DNA from: a virus
Virus record (IMG/VR): IMGVR_UViG_3300047496_000093
Location: 1-60,089 of that record
DNA length: 60,089 nt
Direction: 5' to 3' (one strand)
The notes beneath the pieces are model-generated. The model was not told where the DNA came from. It saw only the letters and a list, made by a program, of their open reading frames with translations, and ran no database searches. Below, one piece after another: positions 1-60,089 of this stretch (position 1 is its first letter; the number at the start of each line of letters is the position of its first letter). Position numbers and translations under genes: made by a program.

Positions 1-348
1 CGTGCTGTAATTGCCCGAGGATGCTGCCTTGCTGTAATTGCCCGAGGATGCTGCCGTGCTGTTCTCGCCCGAGGATGCTGCCTTGCTGTTATATCCCGAG
101 GATGCTGCCGTGCTGTTCTCGCCCGAGGATGCTGCCGTGCTGTAATTGCCCGAGGATGCTGCCGTGCTGTTCTCGCCCGAGGATGCTGCCGTGCTGTAAT
201 TGCCCGAGGATGCTGCCTTGCTGTTTGTTCCTTTTGAATTTTTCTCGCATGTTTTGTAATATTCCTCAAATCCAGTTGTTGCTATTCCGAAAACATCTTG
301 CAATGCCTCAATTTCAAGTTCCGCTTGTGATTTTTCTTTTGTCATCAT
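1..348 (-). CDS. Tandem-repeat phage protein (DUF7666-like), N-terminal part; gene runs off the window edge
   Basis: The minus-strand frame opens with a double ATG at 348 and 345, whose first ATG overlaps the stop of the upstream gene as ATGA. About 40 residues of non-repetitive, Lys/Glu-rich sequence are followed by about 8.5 copies of a nine-residue repeat, consensus SSG(NY/EN/YN)S(K/T)AA. The frame is open to position 1 and resumes in the same repeat phase at 60089, so this is the start of the gene that ends at 59341. Such short Ser/Gly/Ala repeats occur in phage proteins annotated with DUF7666, but the usual conserved N-terminal domain of those proteins is not seen. A stacked beta-solenoid is a guess. 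Function unknown. Confidence 0.75.
   Translation of the reverse strand, partial: MMTKEKSQAELEIEALQDVFGIATTGFEEYYKTCEKNSKGTNSKAASSGNYSTAASSGENSTAASSGNYSTAASSGENSTAASSGYNSKAASSGENSTAASSGNYSKAASSGNYST
16..231. repeat. 27-bp tandem repeat array (left end), 8 full units plus a partial unit
   Basis: Units start at 16, 43, 70, 97, 124, 151, 178 and 205, each beginning CGAGGATGCTGCC. Differences fall at only two places: G or T at base 14 of the unit (Thr or Lys on the minus strand) and a six-base segment spelling Asn-Tyr, Glu-Asn, Tyr-Asn or Thr-Asn. The unit is exactly nine codons, so copy-number change keeps the minus-strand frame. Positions 1-15 are a partial unit. Confidence 0.95.
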
Positions 349-605
349 ACGCCCCTAGCCAGAAAATTAGTCACTCTAATAACGCCATCTTTGTCTTTAC
401 GTTCTTCCGACACACGACGATCTAAATCATCAATATCAGCCTGCGTAATGATAGTCATCGCCGGAAGCATGGTTCCTACATATTCCCATTCGTTGCGATC
501 ATTCTCACGCAAGTTTTCAGTTGCATCGTCAAACGATTCGCAATGGCTTTCAGTATTTAAATGACCTGTTTTTACTGATTTATAAACGTTGATATAAAGT
601 TTCAT
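345..605 (-). CDS. Small early protein of unknown function (86 aa)
   Basis: The start at 605 is preferred because AGGAAAGAGG lies just upstream and the ATG overlaps the previous stop as ATGA; an in-frame ATG at 644 lacks a ribosome site. The protein begins MKLYINVYKS and is acidic in its second half. Its stop overlaps the start of the repeat-protein gene as ATGA, so the three genes are probably translationally coupled. No family recognised. Confidence 0.65.
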   Translation of the reverse strand: MKLYINVYKSVKTGHLNTESHCESFDDATENLRENDRNEWEYVGTMLPAMTIITQADIDDLDRRVSEERKDKDGVIRVTNFLARGV

Positions 606-829
606 ATCGGCCTCTTTCCTGTTATCAGTTTTTCCTTGTTCCATATATTAGCCTGATCCTCCGCTTCTTTTCTTGTGTCGAATGTACCTACCGTTTCGTT
701 TGTGGATATGTAGACAACTACGTTATTTTTACTATGCCCCTGCAATCCGGTTACGATATATTGACCCGCTTTACTTGAAAACAATTTACCTCTGCACACA
801 GCTAATTGCCCTTTAATTCTCGATTGCAT
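602..829 (-). CDS. Small early protein (about 75 aa), possible paralogue of the next upstream gene
   Basis: The frame is open to 910, but the ATG at 829 is the more likely start because the longer form would largely overlap the upstream gene; the ribosome site is weak, so the start is uncertain. The C-terminal half (a short beta segment, then VGTF, then a helix rich in E/A/N) resembles the layout VATF...A...N of the gene at 802-1005. This suggests a duplicated small fold of unknown function. Confidence 0.5.
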   Translation of the reverse strand: MQSRIKGQLAVCRGKLFSSKAGQYIVTGLQGHSKNNVVVYISTNETVGTFDTRKEAEDQANIWNKEKLITGKRPI

Positions 830-1234: not shown

Positions 1235-1269
1235 ACTGTCAATTTACAGTATATTTACTGAGTTGTCAA
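1235..1269 (-). promoter_or_regulatory. Leftward promoter and 16-bp inverted-repeat operator candidate
   Basis: Minus-strand TTGACA (1269-1264) is followed 17 bases later by TAAATT (1246-1241). An inverted repeat ACTGT-6-ACAGT (1235-1250) covers the -10, and the palindrome GTCAATTGAC (1265-1274) covers the -35. The -35 lies within the last codons of the helicase gene. It would drive the ribbon-helix-helix gene at 1064-1207. Confidence 0.45.
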
Positions 1270-2648
1270 TTGACTTTTCTTGCTTTGAGAGCTTCGAGTA
1301 AAATATCCTGAACTTTGCGTTTAGAAGTGAGGCGCTCTAAAACAAGTTCGTCGATTGTGTTTTTTGCGATGATGTGGTAAACAAAAGCCGGTCTGTCAAA
1401 TCCTGCTTGAAGTTGTCGTGTTGGGCCAACGCGACCATTGATTTGGTCATATAATTCCAAATCCCATCCAATTCCGAAATGCGCAATAATGTTGGTCACG
1501 TATTGAAGCCCGTCTACACCGTGTGCCATACTGGCAGGATGTGCTATCCCTATAGAGAATTTACCCGTAAGGAAATCTTTGAATCCCTTTTCCGTTGCTA
1601 AGTCGACCGCGTCTTTTCCGAAATGCTTAAGCAGGCGCTCGCGATCACTTACGAAATTGTACGAAACCATAATCGGCATTCCGTTACTTTCTTCGATTAA
1701 GCTCTCCAAAGCTTCGATCTTAGCTGTGTGAATCTCTTTCCATTCCCGGCTGTCTATGTTCACATACGCGGCGCCATTGCAAATTTGAGATAATTTTCCA
1801 GACTTAGCCGCCGCGTTGAAGGCTTCGATGGGGTGACCATCTAATTCCATGAAAAATTGCTTCTCCATGTCTTTATACAATTTTCTCGCCCCTTCGGGAA
1901 GATTCACCTCGATATTACTCTCAACTGGCTTTTTGATATCCATATAATCCTTGAGATCAATGGATATGCAGAGGTCTTTTATTTTGCTTTCTATCTCTTT
2001 CTGAGCGTGTGGGAGTGCATCAAGACTGAAACCATCAAACCCTCGGCGGAACCACCGTTGTTCAAATGAAGCAAAACTCTTGCCCAAACGTTCCCCTTTG
2101 TCTAAAAAAGCAAGTTGCCCCCAGAGATTAATAAGTCCATTGGGATTCGGAGTCCCCGTAAGTTCAATAAAACGGCAATTATTCTTAAATGCTACACTCA
2201 TGAGCGCTTGTGCTCGCTTCGTGCCTTGACGCGTACGATATCCGCGCAGGCGACTGGATTCATCAAACACAATCACTTTGTATGGCCATTTGTCACCGTG
2301 ATACGCTATCAACCATTCAATGTTTTCGTTATTGGTGGTGTAGACCATTACCTTACGTTTCAATGCCGTTTGGCGTTCTTTGGGCGTCCCGATGATTGCG
2401 GAAATTGTGATATGGTTGAATTCAGCCCATTTTTTAGTCTCGCTCGGCCATGTATCACGTGCCACACGTTTTGGCGCTATAATTAATATCGGGTAAATGT
2501 CTTCAACCAAAGACAAATCGTCCATGGCCATGAAAGTCGCACTGCACTTGCCTCCGCCTACAGGTATCCATACACCGCAACGGGGGGTAGCCACCATATG
2601 GTCGCTGACAATTCTTTGAAAAGGTCGAGGAGTGAAGGGTTGAGTCAC
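1266..2648 (-). CDS. SNF2/DEAD-like superfamily 2 helicase (460 aa)
   Basis: A two-lobed SF2 ATPase of the compact SNF2-type common in phage replication modules. Motif I is GGGKC (31-35), a Cys where Thr/Ser is usual; motif II is DESS (129-132); motif III is LTGTP (163-167). The C-terminal lobe has AHGVDGLQ (motif V) and NGRVGPTR (motif VI). It is expected to couple ATP hydrolysis to remodelling or translocation on double-stranded DNA during replication or recombination. Its start overlaps the stop of the DUF6378 gene, placing it in the replication operon. Confidence 0.88.
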   Translation of the reverse strand: MTQPFTPRPFQRIVSDHMVATPRCGVWIPVGGGKCSATFMAMDDLSLVEDIYPILIIAPKRVARDTWPSETKKWAEFNHITISAIIGTPKERQTALKRKVMVYTTNNENIEWLIAYHGDKWPYKVIVFDESSRLRGYRTRQGTKRAQALMSVAFKNNCRFIELTGTPNPNGLINLWGQLAFLDKGERLGKSFASFEQRWFRRGFDGFSLDALPHAQKEIESKIKDLCISIDLKDYMDIKKPVESNIEVNLPEGARKLYKDMEKQFFMELDGHPIEAFNAAAKSGKLSQICNGAAYVNIDSREWKEIHTAKIEALESLIEESNGMPIMVSYNFVSDRERLLKHFGKDAVDLATEKGFKDFLTGKFSIGIAHPASMAHGVDGLQYVTNIIAHFGIGWDLELYDQINGRVGPTRQLQAGFDRPAFVYHIIAKNTIDELVLERLTSKRKVQDILLEALKARKVN

Positions 2649-2902: not shown

Positions 2903-3162
2903 TTCAACCCCTCATCAATTTTCTCTTTTGTATCCCAGACATAAACCTCAAACCCCGCGGCGCGAAGCCGTTCATGTTCCCGCGCCTGATGGTCCTCAGC
3001 TTCTTTTCCTGGGCGTTTCAACTCAACCAGTATATGTGAACCTGGGAGGAGCGCCAACCTGTCAGGAGCCCCTCTTCGCCCGATCCACTTAAGCTTTCTT
3101 ACGCTTCCGCCCAGTGCTTTTACTTTCTTCTTGAAATACGACTCGATTCCCCTCTCCAGCAT
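2899..3162 (-). CDS. VRR-NUC domain nuclease (87 aa)
   Basis: A single-domain PD-(D/E)XK nuclease of the VRR-NUC family. Visible signatures are GRRGAPDRLALL (the catalytic Asp region), then ILVELKRPG (the E-x-K motif), then a helix and EVYVWDT. Phage stand-alone VRR-NUC proteins are proposed to act on branched DNA such as Holliday junctions. The ATG at 3162 is chosen because GTGAGGTGGGAT precedes it. The first 74 bases overlap the 3' end of the polymerase gene in another frame. Confidence 0.85.
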   Translation of the reverse strand: MLERGIESYFKKKVKALGGSVRKLKWIGRRGAPDRLALLPGSHILVELKRPGKEAEDHQAREHERLRAAGFEVYVWDTKEKIDEGLK

Positions 3163-4936
3163 ATCCCACCTCACTTAGAATTTTATACGCTTCGTCAATG
3201 TACCAATCCAAATTAACATCACAGGGAAATTCATCAGACAATGTCATCAGTGGCTCGGCACCTTCGGATCTCGGGACCGTATGGTTGTTTATTTTATATT
3301 TTATATCACCGAAAGCCAAACGCCCGTAGTACCATCGAATCACCTTACCTAAGTATTCGCCATCCTTCACCGCGCCGCCAGTGACTTTGCGTACGGTAAC
3401 GAATTTTCGAATATCTTTACATCCGTTGATCGTATCTTCGATCGGTATCTGCTTATCCAGGCACTTCACCACTGCCTCGGTGCAAATTTCGTTGGTAGGG
3501 TTCTTCTGTAGTCCAGGGGGAGTATATGCTCCCTTGAGTTTGTACCCGGACGGTGACTTGAGGGCTATGTAGTTGTTGACGTCGCGGCTGTGGAGGGCGC
3601 GGTACTTTGTCTCTTCTATCTCAAAGCCGCTGGTTTCTTCCCATCTCCCTATCTCGACATCAACATCCACAGTTCTGATGTCGGGATGTAAAACAGCAAT
3701 GCCGTCTGTATTTGCGCTGACAACGCTACCGCCAGTGTGTTTTTCAACGGATTCGATAAGCATAAGGAGCGCCAACTGACCCGTCATTGTCGTCTGGATA
3801 AGAAGATTCGGAGAATATAAAATCGAATACTTGCTGCCAAACTTTCCAAAACCACCGTTGATCGTGATCTTCAGACTGTCTGCCGTAACTTTATCGCCGG
3901 ATGCTTTTGCCGCCAGACGCTTATCCACAATATCTTTATAAACTTTTATAAATGTCTTGCCCATTGCGAGAGGGTATAAACCTTGCTGTAAAATAATCGC
4001 AGGGTAGTAAGACGCGACATCAAAATCCCGTAAGATCAGGGTGTCGTTTGCCGTATGGTATTTCGCCTCCTCGGTACTGTGCAATCCGCCAATGCCCAAA
4101 CGATAGGTCGATTGCCCAATGCAAATATCCAAGTCAGCAATTTCCTTAGGGAGCATCACTTTCCCCGAGTCTACAACGTAAAAATCCGCCTCAAGTACCG
4201 TCTTGAGCACATTCTGCAACAACGGCGTTTCGAACTTAATAAAATCAGGTTTATGATACCGAAACGAATGGCACTTCACCACCGGCTTTTCAATCTTATT
4301 CTTTGTGATACGCTCGACCTCGTGCTTCAGCACATGCTCTGCAATCTGCGCATCGCTCTTGCTCCGTAGGTCAATGCCATAGGTCTTGCTCATCTCTTCG
4401 CGCAACGCAATCTGCGGCAATAGGAACTTATATAGCTCCTCCGTTACCCTAAGATCGTTTCCGCAATATAGCCGCAGTTCTTCGCGTTGATCGGGCGAAA
4501 TCGAATCACTAGGGTCAATCGGCAAATCAGCCATTGTCTTGGTGTGCAGACGACCGCCATATGCTTTAAGACTCGCTTTGCCTGGAGCAATTTCGATGAT
4601 GTCTATATGATCAATCTTATCAGATATTTTAAAATTAAATTTCTGTTCAGCTTGCCAATACTTATATCCACCCGCGATAATATAGTCGCAAACCGCTTTG
4701 CACTTTGCGTTGTCTTGGTGCGTAAGCGCACAGAACAGCACTGGCATATCGAAATTAATGCCGTTAAACGTTATGACAGTGCACTTACTTAGAATCTTTC
4801 GGACAGTATCAACGTCTAGCTTCTGCCCTTCAAACATCTCGAAGTTTCGGACGTTGCCCGTAGTCACATTGCGAAAGGCTACGAGGAGGTAATCCCGGTA
4901 GACTTCAATATCGCATATAACTACGGGCTTTTTCAT
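3089..4936 (-). CDS. Family B DNA polymerase with 3'-5' exonuclease (615 aa)
   Basis: The replicative polymerase of the phage. Exonuclease motifs are D9-I-E11 (Exo I), FNGINFD at 57-63 (Exo II) and Y157/D161 (Exo III). Polymerase motif A is DFDVASYYP (304-312), motif B is KITINGGFGKFG (356-367) and motif C is NTDG (409-412), a variant of the usual DTD. At 615 aa it is compact, and no protein-priming terminal-protein gene was noticed nearby. The TAA of the SSB-like gene directly abuts this ATG. The last 24 residues are basic and overlap the nuclease gene. Confidence 0.92.
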   Translation of the reverse strand: MKKPVVICDIEVYRDYLLVAFRNVTTGNVRNFEMFEGQKLDVDTVRKILSKCTVITFNGINFDMPVLFCALTHQDNAKCKAVCDYIIAGGYKYWQAEQKFNFKISDKIDHIDIIEIAPGKASLKAYGGRLHTKTMADLPIDPSDSISPDQREELRLYCGNDLRVTEELYKFLLPQIALREEMSKTYGIDLRSKSDAQIAEHVLKHEVERITKNKIEKPVVKCHSFRYHKPDFIKFETPLLQNVLKTVLEADFYVVDSGKVMLPKEIADLDICIGQSTYRLGIGGLHSTEEAKYHTANDTLILRDFDVASYYPAIILQQGLYPLAMGKTFIKVYKDIVDKRLAAKASGDKVTADSLKITINGGFGKFGSKYSILYSPNLLIQTTMTGQLALLMLIESVEKHTGGSVVSANTDGIAVLHPDIRTVDVDVEIGRWEETSGFEIEETKYRALHSRDVNNYIALKSPSGYKLKGAYTPPGLQKNPTNEICTEAVVKCLDKQIPIEDTINGCKDIRKFVTVRKVTGGAVKDGEYLGKVIRWYYGRLAFGDIKYKINNHTVPRSEGAEPLMTLSDEFPCDVNLDWYIDEAYKILSEVGYAGEGNRVVFQEESKSTGRKRKKA

Positions 4937-31320: not shown

Positions 31321-33633
31321 ATGGCTGTTACCCACGGAGATGTGCAATATAACCCTGTCCCGATCAATCCGAGCACGGATGGCAGTGGCGCGTCACCTAT
31401 GGGGATCCATGCCAATCCCGATGAGTTCGGCGCGCAGGTAGGTGAAGCTACCCAGAAGGCAGGTGCCGAGGGTGTTGATATTGCGCTGAAGCAGCAAGGT
31501 CTTCTTAATGAGACTTTGATGACCAATGCTGATGCAAATTTTGCCAAGGATGTCGGCGCAATAAAAGCGGATTACATGACCAAGACTGGTCTTGCCGCCC
31601 ACGCAGCTTATCCCGCATATCAACAGGCAATTCAAGATGCCTATGTGAAGAATGGAAGTGGTTTAAATCAAGAGGCTTTGCACGGTTATCAGACTCTTGG
31701 TGCTAGGACCATGATAAATCATATAGCAGAGGGCGCAGGATATGCGGCATCACAATTAAAAGAGGGTGCCATTGATTCTGCAACTAATGCTAAAAATGTT
31801 TACATGCAGCAAATCCTTGATCCATCTGTAGCGGCGAGCGATAGTGCATTTCATTACAATCTTGGAACGATAAAGCATTTAACGACCGCTCAAATGGATT
31901 CCGATTCGCCGGGGCTAAAAACAGATCCGGATACAGGCGTTGTGAGTTTCGACGAATCCACTCCCGCCGGTCAAAAAGCGAAGGCTGATTTTCAACAAAA
32001 TTTAGATACCTCAATAGGGAGCGCTTATATTAATAGGTATGACACGCTATCAAAATCAGACCCCTTGGGGGCATTCGCTAAATACCAACAAGAGCGAAAC
32101 GATATACCGAAAGCTGCGCAAGCGGCTTTGGATATTTCATTCGTGCCGAAAGTATTTAATGCCCATGCTCAGGGAATAACCGCGAATGCGATTTCTACCG
32201 CCGAACAGGAACATGCTAAGATATTTTACAATCCTCAGCCTGAAAGGTCTCCGCTTGATGTTATTCGTGATAACGAGGGATACACGGGGAAAATTGGTCG
32301 AGATAGTAATGGTGCCAATGTTATCAACGGCATAAACGAAAAGGCATTTCCGACTGAATATGCGGAAGCAAAGAATTTACTAGACACAAAGGGAAAGGCG
32401 GCAGCGGATGCTTATGCCGATAATTTTTACCAAAAAAACATTATTGACAAATATGACATAAATTCCTTGCCGCAGAAGACGCAGGCAATTGTAGCTGATG
32501 GGCTTGTTAATCATGGCACTGGTACTTTTGGTCAATCCTTAGTAGACGCTGCAAAAAACGGAGCATCACCACAGCAACTTATTGATATGCGTCGCACTGA
32601 ATATCAGCGCCTTGCTGATTCCGATACTGATGGAAGTAAGGGGTATGCGTCTAGCTTAAGGGGATGGGATGCTAGATTAGATAAGTTCCAAACGGCAGCC
32701 GTTGGAAATTCATCAAAATCTTACGCCACAAATCCTGATGGCTCTCCCTTAACTCAGGCCGATTATTATCGGACTCATTCTCAGGATGTGTATGCGAAAG
32801 GTGATGCGTATGCTGAAAGTGTGATGCCTGGTGATTTAGCAATGAAGAGAGCCGTTCGGCTATCGCTTGACAATTATATGAATAAAGCCATCACCAACCA
32901 ATCTGCGCAATATATGATGGATAATAAAAATGTCATGCGCGCTATCAATGGCGAGTTGACTAAAGGCCAATCGCCAGAGACAGAAGAAGAGATGCGAATG
33001 ATACCTGGTATGTCTGGGCTTTTGGATAAAGTGGCGATTCAAGATCCTAAGTTTGCCGAGGGTATTCCTACGATGATTGCAAAGAATGCGCGAAGGAATG
33101 ATGTGACAAATAGCTCGAATGCGTTTGAAACAATTACAAGGACATTGCAGCCGCAGGATGATATGCACCCGAACCACATTAAAAATCAAAATCAGCTGGA
33201 TTCTTTGCTTGGGAAAACGGATAGCACTGGCATCAATATGAAAGATTATAATGATGCCAAGCCAGCTACGGAGTTAGATCCTATTATAAAAGAGCCGATT
33301 TTACAACACATGCAACAAATTGCAAATGCTAACGGCAATATCGATGGTAAGGGACAGCAACGCGCTGTCCAATGGTATAATCAAGTTATGAAATCGTATA
33401 AACAGAAACCTGCGGATATGGATGATGCTACATTTGCCTCTCATATTGGCGAGCCAGAGGGGCCATTATTCGCACCTCCATCACCATCGCGCATGACGCA
33501 GATTTCAAATTGGGCGAAGGAAGTAACGGGATTGGGCCATGTACTTGTAACAAACCCCGATGGTCAGCGGGGTTATATGCCAGCGGCTAATGTAGAAAAA
33601 GCACTGGCTGCTGGCTATAAGAAGGTAGAGTAA
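31321..33633 (+). CDS. Internal virion protein with muramidase-like domain (770 aa)
   Basis: A long helical ejection protein. Around 305-400, VIRDNEGYTGKIGRDSNGANVINGI resembles the catalytic start of GH108/TtsA-like muramidases (Glu followed by D-x-x-G and a G-x-x-N/Q-G-I strand), followed by a helix-rich lobe (NHGTGTFGQSLVDAA). Such a domain would open peptidoglycan for DNA entry. The rest looks like structural helices. Enzyme activity is inferred. Confidence 0.7.
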   Translation: MAVTHGDVQYNPVPINPSTDGSGASPMGIHANPDEFGAQVGEATQKAGAEGVDIALKQQGLLNETLMTNADANFAKDVGAIKADYMTKTGLAAHAAYPAYQQAIQDAYVKNGSGLNQEALHGYQTLGARTMINHIAEGAGYAASQLKEGAIDSATNAKNVYMQQILDPSVAASDSAFHYNLGTIKHLTTAQMDSDSPGLKTDPDTGVVSFDESTPAGQKAKADFQQNLDTSIGSAYINRYDTLSKSDPLGAFAKYQQERNDIPKAAQAALDISFVPKVFNAHAQGITANAISTAEQEHAKIFYNPQPERSPLDVIRDNEGYTGKIGRDSNGANVINGINEKAFPTEYAEAKNLLDTKGKAAADAYADNFYQKNIIDKYDINSLPQKTQAIVADGLVNHGTGTFGQSLVDAAKNGASPQQLIDMRRTEYQRLADSDTDGSKGYASSLRGWDARLDKFQTAAVGNSSKSYATNPDGSPLTQADYYRTHSQDVYAKGDAYAESVMPGDLAMKRAVRLSLDNYMNKAITNQSAQYMMDNKNVMRAINGELTKGQSPETEEEMRMIPGMSGLLDKVAIQDPKFAEGIPTMIAKNARRNDVTNSSNAFETITRTLQPQDDMHPNHIKNQNQLDSLLGKTDSTGINMKDYNDAKPATELDPIIKEPILQHMQQIANANGNIDGKGQQRAVQWYNQVMKSYKQKPADMDDATFASHIGEPEGPLFAPPSPSRMTQISNWAKEVTGLGHVLVTNPDGQRGYMPAANVEKALAAGYKKVE

Positions 33634-44164: not shown

Positions 44165-46468
44165 ATGGTTTTCAAGAGTTCTATAAACTCAGGTGGAGGT
44201 GGTGGGGGTGGAGTCACGTCTGTCAACAACCAGACGGGAGCCGTCACGATTCAGTCTTCTGGTGCGACTATCACTATTACCAACCCATCGGCCGGTGTTG
44301 TCAATCTCGAAGCTTCTGGTGGAGCGTCAGTTTCATTTACTGCGCTGACAAGCGGTACGAACACCGCAGCAGCCATGCATGTAGGTTCAGGTGCCACCCT
44401 CAATGCCACAGGTACGGGCACGATCACGGCAACCTCAGTACCGGCGTCTGGTCTAACCGGAACAACCATCGCCTCCAGCGTCACCGGGTCATCATTGACA
44501 GGTGTCGGTGCCTTAGCGTCAGGATCTCTTACAACGGGATTTACGCCCGTGACCGTTCCTCTAGGCGGCACTGGAGATAGTACCTTTACCGCTTATTCAA
44601 TTATCGCAGCAGGTACTACCTCCACCGGTGCCTTCCAAAACGTATCGGGTGTAGGAACGAGCGGGCAGGTACTAACATCCAACGGTGCAGCAGCGCTGCC
44701 GACTTGGCAAGCGGCCTCAGGTGGGGTTACTTCCGTTACCAATTCAGACGGTACTCTTACTATTTCACCCACGACGGGAGCGGTTGTAGCTTCTCTTGCT
44801 CTTGGTCATGCAAACACATGGACGGCAACGCAAACATTATCTGCCGCAAACTTAGCTACCGATACTACAACGGGCATGAAAATTGGCACTGCCACGAATC
44901 AAAAGGTTGGGTTCTTCAATGCTACCCCGGTGGTTCAGCAGACTGGTGATATATCAGGGGCATTAAGCACTCTTGGCTTAGTCACAAGCGGCACACTTCC
45001 TGCAGCTGATTTAACTGGCACAACGTTGCCTTCAAGCATTGTCACATCATCTCTTACGACGGTAGGTACACTGGGGTCTCTCACAGTCACGGGCAATATC
45101 GCAAACTCCGCTCTATCCGCATCTCAGGCCGTTTTCACGGACGCGTCTAAAAACCTAATCAGTGTTGCGACTACGGGAACGGGAAATGTTGTTCGCGCTA
45201 CATCACCCACCCTTATCACTCCCGCTCTTGGTACGCCAACCGCTTTAGTGCTCACTAATGCTACTGGCCTTCCAGTCGCGGGTGGCGGCACTGGAGATGC
45301 ATCATTTACCGCATATGCCGTCATAACTGGTGGAACGACTTCGACTGGGGCACTCCAGAATGTATCGGGCGTAGGTACGTCTGGTCAGGTTCTTACCTCT
45401 AACGGAGCCGGAGCATTGCCTACTTGGCAAGCGGGCGGAGGTGGCGGATCGGGATCAGCCCTTACTGATTCTATTACTCAAACCGCACATGGATTCTCAG
45501 TCCAGCAAGCCGTATATTATACTGGTTCAGCATATGCATTAGCCAAAGCTGATTCTACTAACACTTCTGATGTCATCGGCATAGTATCATCCGTCACCAA
45601 CGCGAATGTATTTGTCATCACTACGGCAGGTCGAATTACAGGACTAAGCGGTCTCACTGCGGGTACTGCATATTTCCTTGACGATTCTACTGCCGGTGCT
45701 CTGACAGCAACCGCTCCGACAGCTTCCAACCATGTTAGCAAGCCGTTATTAATCGCTGACAGCGCGACATCTGGATACTTCAATAACTATCGCGGTGAGA
45801 TTTTGGCTGTTTCTGCGGCGGTGACGTCTTTAACTGTTGCTTCTGCAAACGGATTCGCTGGTAGTTTTACGAGTGCCCCTACTCCAGTGCTCACACTTTC
45901 TACCACAGCGTCAGGCGTTCTCATTGGCGATGGGACAACTATTAGCGGTGCGAATAGAATTTCATATGAAGACACTACTAACATATTCAATATTTCCACA
46001 ATTACGGCAGGAGATAAGGCTCTAACCATTACAGATGTTACAAATAATTCTCTTTATTTCATAGATATGGAGAATGGGTCTGCCGATTCGTTATTCAGGT
46101 TTGACAATAAGGCCAGGCCAGTAACCGGCCACACTACCCCAACTATAGCTGCTGGAACTGGCGCGGGTACTTCACCTACGGTATCCGTAACAGGTACGGA
46201 TGTTAACGGTGTTGTAAGTGTGACGGCTGGTATAACGGCTGCGACGTCGGCAATTGTGGCTACCATATCCTTCTCAACAGCCTACGCCGCTGCACCTAAA
46301 ACTGTAATTATGGTTCCTGCTAATTCAGCAGCTGCTCTGCTATCGGGAGCAACCATGACGTATGTTGACCCAACGAATACCACCACTGCGCACTGGGTAA
46401 TAACGTCCGGCACTACGGGTCTCACGGCGACGGTTCAATATAAATGGCAATTTTTAGTGATCGGTTAA
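44165..46468 (+). CDS. Large tail fibre with internal duplication (767 aa)
   Basis: Shares its N-terminus with the 239-aa protein at 41256. Two copies of a module containing GGTGD(S/A)(T)FTAY, GTTSTGA(F/L)QNVSGVGTSG and QVLTSNGA(A/G)ALPTWQA occur near 138-190 and 378-422. Residues 300-370 contain SPTLITPALGTPTALVLT as in the first fibre. The C-terminal domain (about 680-767) is Thr/Ala-rich and ends VQYKWQFLVIG, a common fibre tip ending. Confidence 0.75.
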   Translation: MVFKSSINSGGGGGGGVTSVNNQTGAVTIQSSGATITITNPSAGVVNLEASGGASVSFTALTSGTNTAAAMHVGSGATLNATGTGTITATSVPASGLTGTTIASSVTGSSLTGVGALASGSLTTGFTPVTVPLGGTGDSTFTAYSIIAAGTTSTGAFQNVSGVGTSGQVLTSNGAAALPTWQAASGGVTSVTNSDGTLTISPTTGAVVASLALGHANTWTATQTLSAANLATDTTTGMKIGTATNQKVGFFNATPVVQQTGDISGALSTLGLVTSGTLPAADLTGTTLPSSIVTSSLTTVGTLGSLTVTGNIANSALSASQAVFTDASKNLISVATTGTGNVVRATSPTLITPALGTPTALVLTNATGLPVAGGGTGDASFTAYAVITGGTTSTGALQNVSGVGTSGQVLTSNGAGALPTWQAGGGGGSGSALTDSITQTAHGFSVQQAVYYTGSAYALAKADSTNTSDVIGIVSSVTNANVFVITTAGRITGLSGLTAGTAYFLDDSTAGALTATAPTASNHVSKPLLIADSATSGYFNNYRGEILAVSAAVTSLTVASANGFAGSFTSAPTPVLTLSTTASGVLIGDGTTISGANRISYEDTTNIFNISTITAGDKALTITDVTNNSLYFIDMENGSADSLFRFDNKARPVTGHTTPTIAAGTGAGTSPTVSVTGTDVNGVVSVTAGITAATSAIVATISFSTAYAAAPKTVIMVPANSAAALLSGATMTYVDPTNTTTAHWVITSGTTGLTATVQYKWQFLVIG

Positions 46469-58716: not shown

Positions 58717-59109
58717 TTATGCTGCGATTTCTTCGGTCATTCCCTTGTATTGAATGCCTCCTTCAAGAAGTAGGAATTTGCCAGCACCGAAATTCTCCAC
58801 GCATTGAGCTTTGAGGCGGTCATATACCTCAGCAGGAATGGTGCCTTCGTAATGAAGGATATGCATTTTACGTCCTTCAATTTTCGCACCATCTTTCCCG
58901 CACCGCACAAACTCATGCTCATCCTTCACAAAGCAGCGAGGTTCATTTTTCCTTGACTGTTCTGTCCAAAAATCACCAGCTTTTGCCAAAGCCCAAATCT
59001 GCGTTCCGTTAATTTTTACGCATTCCCATATATTGGTCAGATACGACCTGTCACCCGTGCGTCTATTCTTGGAAACCGTGAAGTAATCGCCTACTAAAAT
59101 TGTGTCCAT
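58717..59109 (-). CDS. Early protein of unknown function (130 aa)
   Basis: TTAGGAGAA precedes the ATG. Contains YFTVSKNRRTGDRSYLTNIW and FWTEQSRKNEPRCFVKDEHE, beta-rich with conserved-looking aromatics. No family recognised. Confidence 0.55.
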   Translation of the reverse strand: MDTILVGDYFTVSKNRRTGDRSYLTNIWECVKINGTQIWALAKAGDFWTEQSRKNEPRCFVKDEHEFVRCGKDGAKIEGRKMHILHYEGTIPAEVYDRLKAQCVENFGAGKFLLLEGGIQYKGMTEEIAA

Positions 59110-59340: not shown

Positions 59341-60089
59341 CTAATTTCCCCTCACTGCCGAAGAAAACTTTTCAGACCCATATTGACCCTTAATCAATTT
59401 GGCAATTTCATTTGCTGTATAAGTATCATCAAGACTTTTTCCAGTCGTTTCTACAAAGTTTCTTACACCAGCGCCACACGCACCCGTAACGGCACGATAA
59501 ATGCCGATCCATTCTGTACCTGTTGTTTTTTTAGGTAATTCCCCATCGAATTTTGCGACAACTTTATAAATTAAGTCTTCACGAGCCTTAGCGATAGTAT
59601 CGCCATGTGCGGAATTGCCTTTATCGTCTTTGACAACGAACAATATTTTTCCTGATTCGGTTTTTACTTTTTTGACACCATTTCTGGTTGAAATAACGTA
59701 AGTGAAAACATCATCTGTAAAATCTACTTCTACCCACTTACCGTTATTAACAATATACCAACAATCAGGCTTAATTTTTTTACCGTCAACGAGATCGGCT
59801 TTTCCTCCTACGGGGATATATTTGTTGTCTTTTATGACATATTCTGAAGACATCAATAGATTGCCAAGATCGCCCTTTACCGCTGCGCGGTATCCTACCG
59901 CAGCGGTTCCGCTGTTCTCGCCCGAGGATGCTGCCTTGCTGTAATTGCCCGAGGATGCTGCCGTGCTGTTCTCGCCCGAGGATGCTGCCTTGCTGTTATA
60001 TCCCGAGGATGCTGCCGTGCTGTAATTGCCCGAGGATGCTGCCGTGCTGTTCTCGCCCGAGGATGCTGCCTTGCTGTTCTCGCCCGAGG
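59341..60089 (-). CDS. Tandem-repeat phage protein (DUF7666-like), repeats and C-terminal domains
   Basis: Continuation of the gene that starts at 348. From 60089 the frame reads further nine-residue repeats, then GTAAVGYRAAVKGDLGNLL (a closing repeat cap), a region VDGKKIKPDCWYIVNNGKWV typical of DUF7666-associated phage proteins, and a C-terminal helical domain with GDTIAKAREDLIYKVVAKFD and YRAVTGACGAGVRNFVET. The ATG at 59856 is internal, because the repeats upstream are in frame. The C-terminal domain is recurrent in phages; function unknown. Confidence 0.8.
   Translation of the reverse strand, partial: SGENSKAASSGENSTAASSGNYSTAASSGYNSKAASSGENSTAASSGNYSKAASSGENSGTAAVGYRAAVKGDLGNLLMSSEYVIKDNKYIPVGGKADLVDGKKIKPDCWYIVNNGKWVEVDFTDDVFTYVISTRNGVKKVKTESGKILFVVKDDKGNSAHGDTIAKAREDLIYKVVAKFDGELPKKTTGTEWIGIYRAVTGACGAGVRNFVETTGKSLDDTYTANEIAKLIKGQYGSEKFSSAVRGN
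59923..60089. repeat. 27-bp tandem repeat array (right end), 6 full units plus a partial unit
   Basis: Units start at 59923, 59950, 59977, 60004, 60031 and 60058, with the sequence ending CGAGG at 60089. Same unit and same two variable places as the array at 16-231, including one copy of the rarer TATATC version in each. To join position 60089 to position 1 in phase, the 7 bases ATGCTGC (plus any multiple of 27) are needed. Confidence 0.95.

Follow-up and report, generated by a model that had tools for sequence, protein, structure and literature searches.

The ends of a 60-kb phage record lie within one 27-bp tandem-repeat gene and very probably mark an assembly break in a circle-mapping genome

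We analyzed a viral sequence of 60,089 nucleotides (IMG/VR record IMGVR_UViG_3300047496_000093, the whole of which is referred to below as the window), both ends of which are located in a tandem array of 27-bp units. The features at and around these ends are compiled in Table 1. The preliminary description had proposed a single minus-strand gene, which would start at 348 and reach position 1, pick up again at 60089 with the 27-bp phase preserved, and terminate at 59341. This gene is indeed open on both sides of the cut: the frame is uninterrupted from the ATG at 348 (the start codon is this ATG or that at 345) to base 1 and from the record end to the stop codon at 59341-59343. Translation of the upstream piece gives MMTKEKSQAELEIEALQDVFGIATTGFEEYYKTCEKNSKGTNSK and then eight 9-residue units. 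In the downstream array, a 20-base partial unit at 60070-60089 precedes six complete ones at 59908-60069, and TRF assigned a period of 27 to both parts (1-224, score of 343; 59911-60089, score of 267). The gene comprises a short N-terminal module, a series of 9-residue AASSGxxS(T/K) units that is predicted to form a beta-solenoid, and, after these, a cap and a C-terminal domain that is conserved. Individual units follow the pattern AASSG-x1-x2-S-x3, in which x1x2 is NY, EN, or YN and x3 is T or K, and the framework codons are invariant across the 13 inner units, with the exception of GGC/GGA. A run of genes on the same strand spans both sides of the cut; family matches were sought for the immediate upstream neighbor and for the gene downstream of the split gene, and none were found for either. 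The split gene belongs to the minus-strand, DNA-metabolism side, where the helicase, DNA polymerase, and exonuclease genes also lie; the tail genes are on the plus strand. Among the structural genes, two plus-strand genes (31321-33633 and 44165-46468) encode proteins of 770 and 767 amino acids without a PHROG match.

Table 1. Features at the two ends of the window and in their vicinity
Feature	Position	Strand	Basis
N-terminal module (MMTKEKSQAELEIEALQDVFGIATTGFEEYY...), 5' part of the split gene	217..348	-	Open frame and match in intact relatives
Upstream array part, eight complete 9-aa units AASSG(NY/EN/YN)S(T/K), cut at base 1	1..216	-	TRF period of 27 and unit list
Downstream array part, cut at base 60089	59908..60089	-	TRF period of 27 and unit list
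Solenoid cap and C-terminal domain (HGDT...YR.VTGAC...GQYG motifs)	59341..59907	-	Open frame
Longest exact duplicate (104 bp), copy 1	13..116		Sequence comparison of ends
Longest exact duplicate (104 bp), copy 2	59920..60023		Sequence comparison of ends
Upstream neighbor, overlaps the split gene by 4 bp	345..644	-	ORF list
SNF2-type DNA helicase (minus-strand run, upstream of the split gene)	1266..2648	-	PF00176, E 5e-13; phrog_62, E 4e-121
Gene downstream of the split gene, across the record cut	58717..59109	-	ORF list

When the two ends are joined directly, the last and the first unit starts are 47 bases apart, which corresponds to 20 mod 27; 7 bases (mod 27) are therefore missing, and the direct join runs into stop codons. 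An independent phase scan also returned 7 missing bases, with a score of 0.91 versus 0.41 for the next best offset. Unit spacing and phase scan thus agree with the earlier proposal that direct joining shifts the frame. The missing bases are the first 7 of a unit, which read GCAGCAT in all other units, and restoring them results in a frame that reads through to give 367 amino acids and 15 units, the minimal closure. The record consequently lacks 7 + 27k bases, where k = 0 corresponds to 15 units, a number that would fall within the 7 to 20 units counted in intact relatives.

To retrieve such relatives, we searched with the C-terminal domain of the window, which yielded 175 viral-contig relatives; HG, YR, and TGAC are invariant in this domain. 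In six of them (L165, L167, L168, L169, L170, and L171), the N module (41 to 67% identity to the window) and the C domain (58 to 69%) are found in one uninterrupted open reading frame (ORF), with the 27-bp array between them. Unlike in the window, the gene is whole and internal in these six relatives, and the number and mix of units differ. Since both window pieces are present in a single ORF of six relatives, the record ends must be adjacent in the genome. Array, cap, and C-terminal domain are also joined in one gene in the IMG/VR relatives L165 to L176, of which L165 and L167 to L171 have the N module of the window gene, and in the more distant protein XCD03121 of Dulem virus 31 (circular record PP511318). 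The latter record (L005) is a 35.8-kb circular sequence with tailed-phage-like genes that is filed under Microviridae and is probably misclassified.

These data support the initial suggestion of a circular or permuted genome without natural linear ends at this site. It is very probable that the record ends are not natural termini and that the record represents an essentially complete, circle-mapping genome that was opened by the assembler inside one repeat gene. The phage is circle-mapping in the sense of its map, a statement that does not extend to permutation of the virion DNA; the map would be circular either because the DNA takes a circular form or because the population is circularly permuted or terminally redundant. 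The portal protein is epsilon15-like (32 to 36% identity), and the terminase is also related; a search of the open literature for work that fixes the packaging strategy of epsilon15 retrieved none. The same phage was not found in IMG/VR, either by DNA pattern or by DNA polymerase, and relatives at the DNA level in the phage collection were limited to a 183-bp helicase stretch. The contigs that carry the closest relatives of the gene gave no DNA polymerase match and one weak portal match in 13, and their other genes do not match this phage, so that a near-identical genome for a whole-map comparison was not among them. The repeat gene therefore appears, judging from its sequence relatives, some of which are on fragmentary contigs, to move between unrelated phages.

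Two other explanations of the cut were considered. (i) The record could be a contig fragment that by chance ends in two paralogous repeat genes, one contributing the N-terminal part and the other the C-terminal part. Some phages do contain two such genes (IMGVR_UViG_2795385501_000005; L059 and L065). However, the two sides of the window share DNA variants and unit types as well as the 104-bp exact duplicate, and pS is 0.63 between arrays of different phages versus 0.12 within one array. In addition, the N and C modules pair as they do in single intact genes, and the contig already holds the structural and replication modules. The shared unit variants and the exact duplicate in particular disfavor two paralogues, and we regard this explanation as highly improbable. 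(ii) The ends could be real if the virion genome is linear and uses the shared array as its direct terminal repeat. The record ends are similar over about 179 bp, with 94% identity and in the same orientation. Packaging generates terminal repeats whose copies are identical and sit at the exact genome ends. In the window, the copies differ, as do the phases of the two ends; an exact overlap or exact terminal repeat between the record ends was not found, and IMG/VR, which classifies the record as "linear," did not detect end repeats. The similarity is explained by the coding array, which is intact inside the relatives. A direct terminal repeat is rejected because an identical repeat is absent from the two exact ends, so that this explanation is equally remote.

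The assembly break itself would have arisen because the near-identical 27-bp units could not be threaded by short reads or k-mers; collapse of the repeat, possibly together with variation in repeat number in the population, would have led the assembler to open the gene. Two observations bear on this proposal. Exact duplicates in the window reach 104 bp at most (none of 105 bp or more were found), a length that 150-bp reads could in principle span; the stretch missing from the assembly must then be longer or richer in repeats, unless the path was broken by coverage or by variation in the population. Furthermore, the window ends lack a k-mer overlap, unlike several of the parallel cases described below, which counts against an assembly break in that the exact event is not reproduced.

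To place the cut in a wider context, we analyzed 87 viral-contig loci with 27-bp arrays. We found 14 contig ends in 39 kb of array, compared with 15 in 490 kb of flanking DNA; contig ends in IMG/VR are thus about 11 times denser in arrays than in the flanks (binomial p of about 4e-9). The left side of one locus (L034) was left out of the flank count, as the sequence stops there without a contig end. The locus search retained the highest-scoring matches and so disfavored truncated genes, which makes the enrichment conservative. When loci were anchored on the C-terminal domain, a contig end was located within 700 bp upstream, on the array side, in 39 of 80 loci and within the same distance downstream in 3 (p = 6e-9); many of the upstream arrays in this set are a different, 60- to 66-bp LRR-like repeat on the same domain. 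Six other IMG/VR contigs (G005, G006, G009, G015, G016, and G019) resemble the window in that a single gene of this kind holds both of their ends. In GenBank, seven of the records MK511039 to MK511051 are cut in or next to the repeat gene, as are PP740689, PP067092, MZ089728, KX776161, and PQ571263. The records with both ends in one such gene (MK511048, MK511039, PP740689, MZ089728, PP067092, KX776161, and PQ571263) come from several studies, and the phages cut in this gene family are otherwise unrelated.

Exact end overlaps in these cases measure 127 bp (G006, G009, MK511048, and MK511039), 103 bp (PP740689), and 81 bp (G005), lengths that look like assembler k-mers. Removal of the 127-bp overlap from MK511048 restores an intact gene, and the start of this record is identical over 1500 of 1500 bases to MK511045, where the repeat gene is internal; MK511048 can be rotated onto MK511045 with the gene whole. 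The two ends of G016 (L263 and L264) carry two versions of the gene, with about six and at least ten units, respectively, as counted between N module and cap, which suggests either population length variation or a chimeric path. Taken together, the pattern at the record ends is an explained assembly artefact of general occurrence.

Several public records carry traces of such arrays in their annotation or at their termini. In MG592551 (L007), the GenBank annotation presents positions 2979-3196 as CRISPR spacers, although this stretch is the 27-bp coding array of a relative and is inside a protein gene. In PP740689, pieces of the array at the record ends (L015, 12-49; L013, 3020-3057) are annotated as attL/attR, which are units of one cut gene, and the repeat gene itself is without annotation. 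PQ571263, deposited as a "complete genome," begins with a long run of C (L009, 1-180) and has an adapter-like end sequence directly after the N part of the repeat gene (L016, 1700-1851); both are leftover non-genomic sequence at the cut.

Judged by sequence, the split gene is a member of a known, widespread, uncharacterised phage family of 9-residue repeats, since the window pieces match phrog_27197 (E 2.1e-12, over array and cap) and phrog_4433 (E 5e-6). Proteins of these groups, such as ES18 gp53 and ALY08169 of Pseudomonas phage phi1, resemble the window gene in their tandem 9-residue G-x-x-S units, the cap IKPDxWYxLxxGxxVE, the near-identical 27-bp DNA units, and their occurrence in many phages. 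Relatives with a DUF7666 N-terminal domain are found in phages of Pseudomonas, Salmonella (ES18 gp53), Vibrio, Acinetobacter, Pseudanabaena, and others. The window gene differs from these in three respects: DUF7666 is missing, the short N module is a distinct one, and a C-terminal domain is added that the DUF7666 proteins do not have. Neither window piece has a Pfam match, whereas the proteins P0004 to P0006 match DUF7666 (PF24703) with E values of 4e-28 to 8e-35. A search for literature on DUF7666 retrieved none. The C-terminal domain is in turn shared with proteins that have 60- to 66-bp LRR-like repeats, including orf51 of Tetrasphaera phage TJE1 and L184. Their array, which also lies upstream of the domain and also cuts contigs, forms a solenoid of about 20- to 22-residue units (GTGITSLPDNLTVGGSLDLR), unlike that of the window. 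This arrangement, the C-terminal domain (HGDT...YRVITGAC...) on 20- to 22-residue LRR-like arrays, was seen in L157 to L160, L178, and L181 to L240, with a high contig-cut rate.

Matches to other repeat proteins were weaker. Escherichia coli YdhT (NCBIfam NF007410), a cellular protein of unknown function and not a phage protein, is matched over the repeats with 24 to 44 bits, and the window pieces score 24.5 to 29.8 bits, far below the curated family cut-off of 300 bits. The RTX nonapeptide beta-roll shares a nine-residue repeat and a strand-turn solenoid with the window family, but the GGxGxD calcium motif is absent from the AASSGxxS(T/K) units; these do not follow the GGxGxDxUx nonapeptide and have no Pfam match, and the fold similarity to RTX chains (Z of about 7) is at the level of common arrangements. 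The labels RTX, collagen, and SclB-like were rejected, as the corresponding matches are of low complexity and far below the cut-offs or are absent. Pentapeptide repeats (DNA mimics, A(D/N)LXX) were ruled out by the period of nine residues and the lack of a Pfam match, and a match to Spt5 among PDB sequences was rejected as a CTD-like repeat that is not credible.

For a structural prediction, we modeled L165, one of the intact relatives, from an alignment of 67 sequences that included the window piece P0002. The resulting model (pLDDT of 87.3, pTM of 0.80) contains a five-residue strand (x3-A-A-S-S) every nine residues, with G-x1-x2-S as the turn, and the repeat region is accordingly predicted to be a beta-solenoid with one strand per unit. 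A single-sequence fold of the C-terminal part of the window had a pLDDT of 35 and was unusable. Predicted viral proteins of the same repeat family match the L165-type model. Foldseek against the PDB gave nothing better than an E value of 0.8; alignment to solved structures with VIA-align gave Z scores of 5 to 9, which we read as "beta-solenoid" only, without assignment to a family. A credible solved homologue was not found by sequence.

The evolution of the units was assessed on 105 arrays, which are not phylogenetically independent. In this set, pS at framework codons was 0.117 within an array and 0.632 between arrays, and pN reached 0.32 at x1 and 0.40 at x2, compared with 0.17 or less elsewhere. 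Low within-array and high between-array pS indicates that the units are homogenized by recombination and not by constraint at the DNA level. Repeats of high internal conservation are defined by an amino acid identity of more than 85% among units across 100 or more residues. In the window, where the array is incomplete in the record, the mean pairwise amino acid identity of the units is 0.815 and reaches a maximum of 0.87 to 0.88 at a lag of 54 or 81, with a DNA identity of 0.909; homogenized units with hypervariable codons, as found here, are one feature of high-internal-conservation recognition repeats. Variation driven by a DGR was rejected, as no reverse transcriptase was found in the genome: PF00078 had no match in the window, and the control search was positive in 3 genomes. 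A comparable case is provided by the NLR repeats of fungi (WD40 repeats of HET-D/HET-E), which are near-identical tandem units under concerted evolution with hypervariable positions and repeat-number polymorphism, and for which Illumina assemblies fail and long reads are needed (PMC4986451, PMC12222747). The phage arrays share with them the homogenized units, the variable positions, the variation in repeat number, and the failure of short-read assembly. The fungal repeats differ in their beta-propeller fold, their host kingdom, and their known recognition function, and the comparison is meant as an analogy without a claim of homology. By this analogy, homogenized units that vary at two adjacent turn residues may be a signature of fast-evolving recognition repeats.

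As to function, the gene product is possibly a cytoplasmic recognition or decoy solenoid for host interaction or counter-defence, in which x1 and x2 (and x3) would be varied on a constant scaffold by unit shuffling; we put this forward tentatively. A number of observations are in line with it. (i) The L165 model places x1-x2 in the turns, and the 105 arrays combine high pN at x1/x2 with low within-array pS. (ii) The gene is found in phages with unrelated structural genes. (iii) The C domain is also joined to the quite different 60- to 66-bp repeat solenoids. (iv) The fungal repeats provide a precedent (PMC4986451, PMC12222747). By analogy with these repeats only, the solenoid would offer a putative binding surface, with the turn residues determining its specificity, and the product may be made early in infection, together with the DNA-metabolism genes, and remain cytoplasmic. 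Against recognition, a match to defence families was sought and none was found, the absence of a credible solved homologue among the sequence matches also applies, and the variation of turn residues could be tolerated surface variation, seen here in phylogenetically non-independent arrays. Alternatively, the product could be a structural or virion-associated fibre instead of an early cytoplasmic protein. Beta-solenoids are frequent in tail fibres, and the model has a weak fold similarity to tailspikes. However, the gene lies on the minus-strand DNA-metabolism side, away from the plus-strand tail genes, the genes next to it in other phages serve replication, recombination, or regulation, and searches for tail-fibre and enzyme domains found none, which makes a fibre improbable. 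The recognition reading can be widened to a module like the fungal sensors that is homogenized by recombination, shuffled at x1x2 (plus x3), and truncated in or lost from databases as its arrays break assemblies; in this full form, it is rather doubtful.

For the window, the data mean that the contig is a near-complete genome that is interrupted within one repeat array, and neither a fragment nor a linear molecule with termini at this site. Genes of this family are frequent ends of phage contigs, and they are consequently cut, misannotated as CRISPR spacers or attL/attR, and undercounted. The systematic cutting and the homogenized units with variable turns form a wider pattern that is worth following up. 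If the turn residues set specificity, the family would represent a short modular binding repeat that is exchanged and edited by phages.
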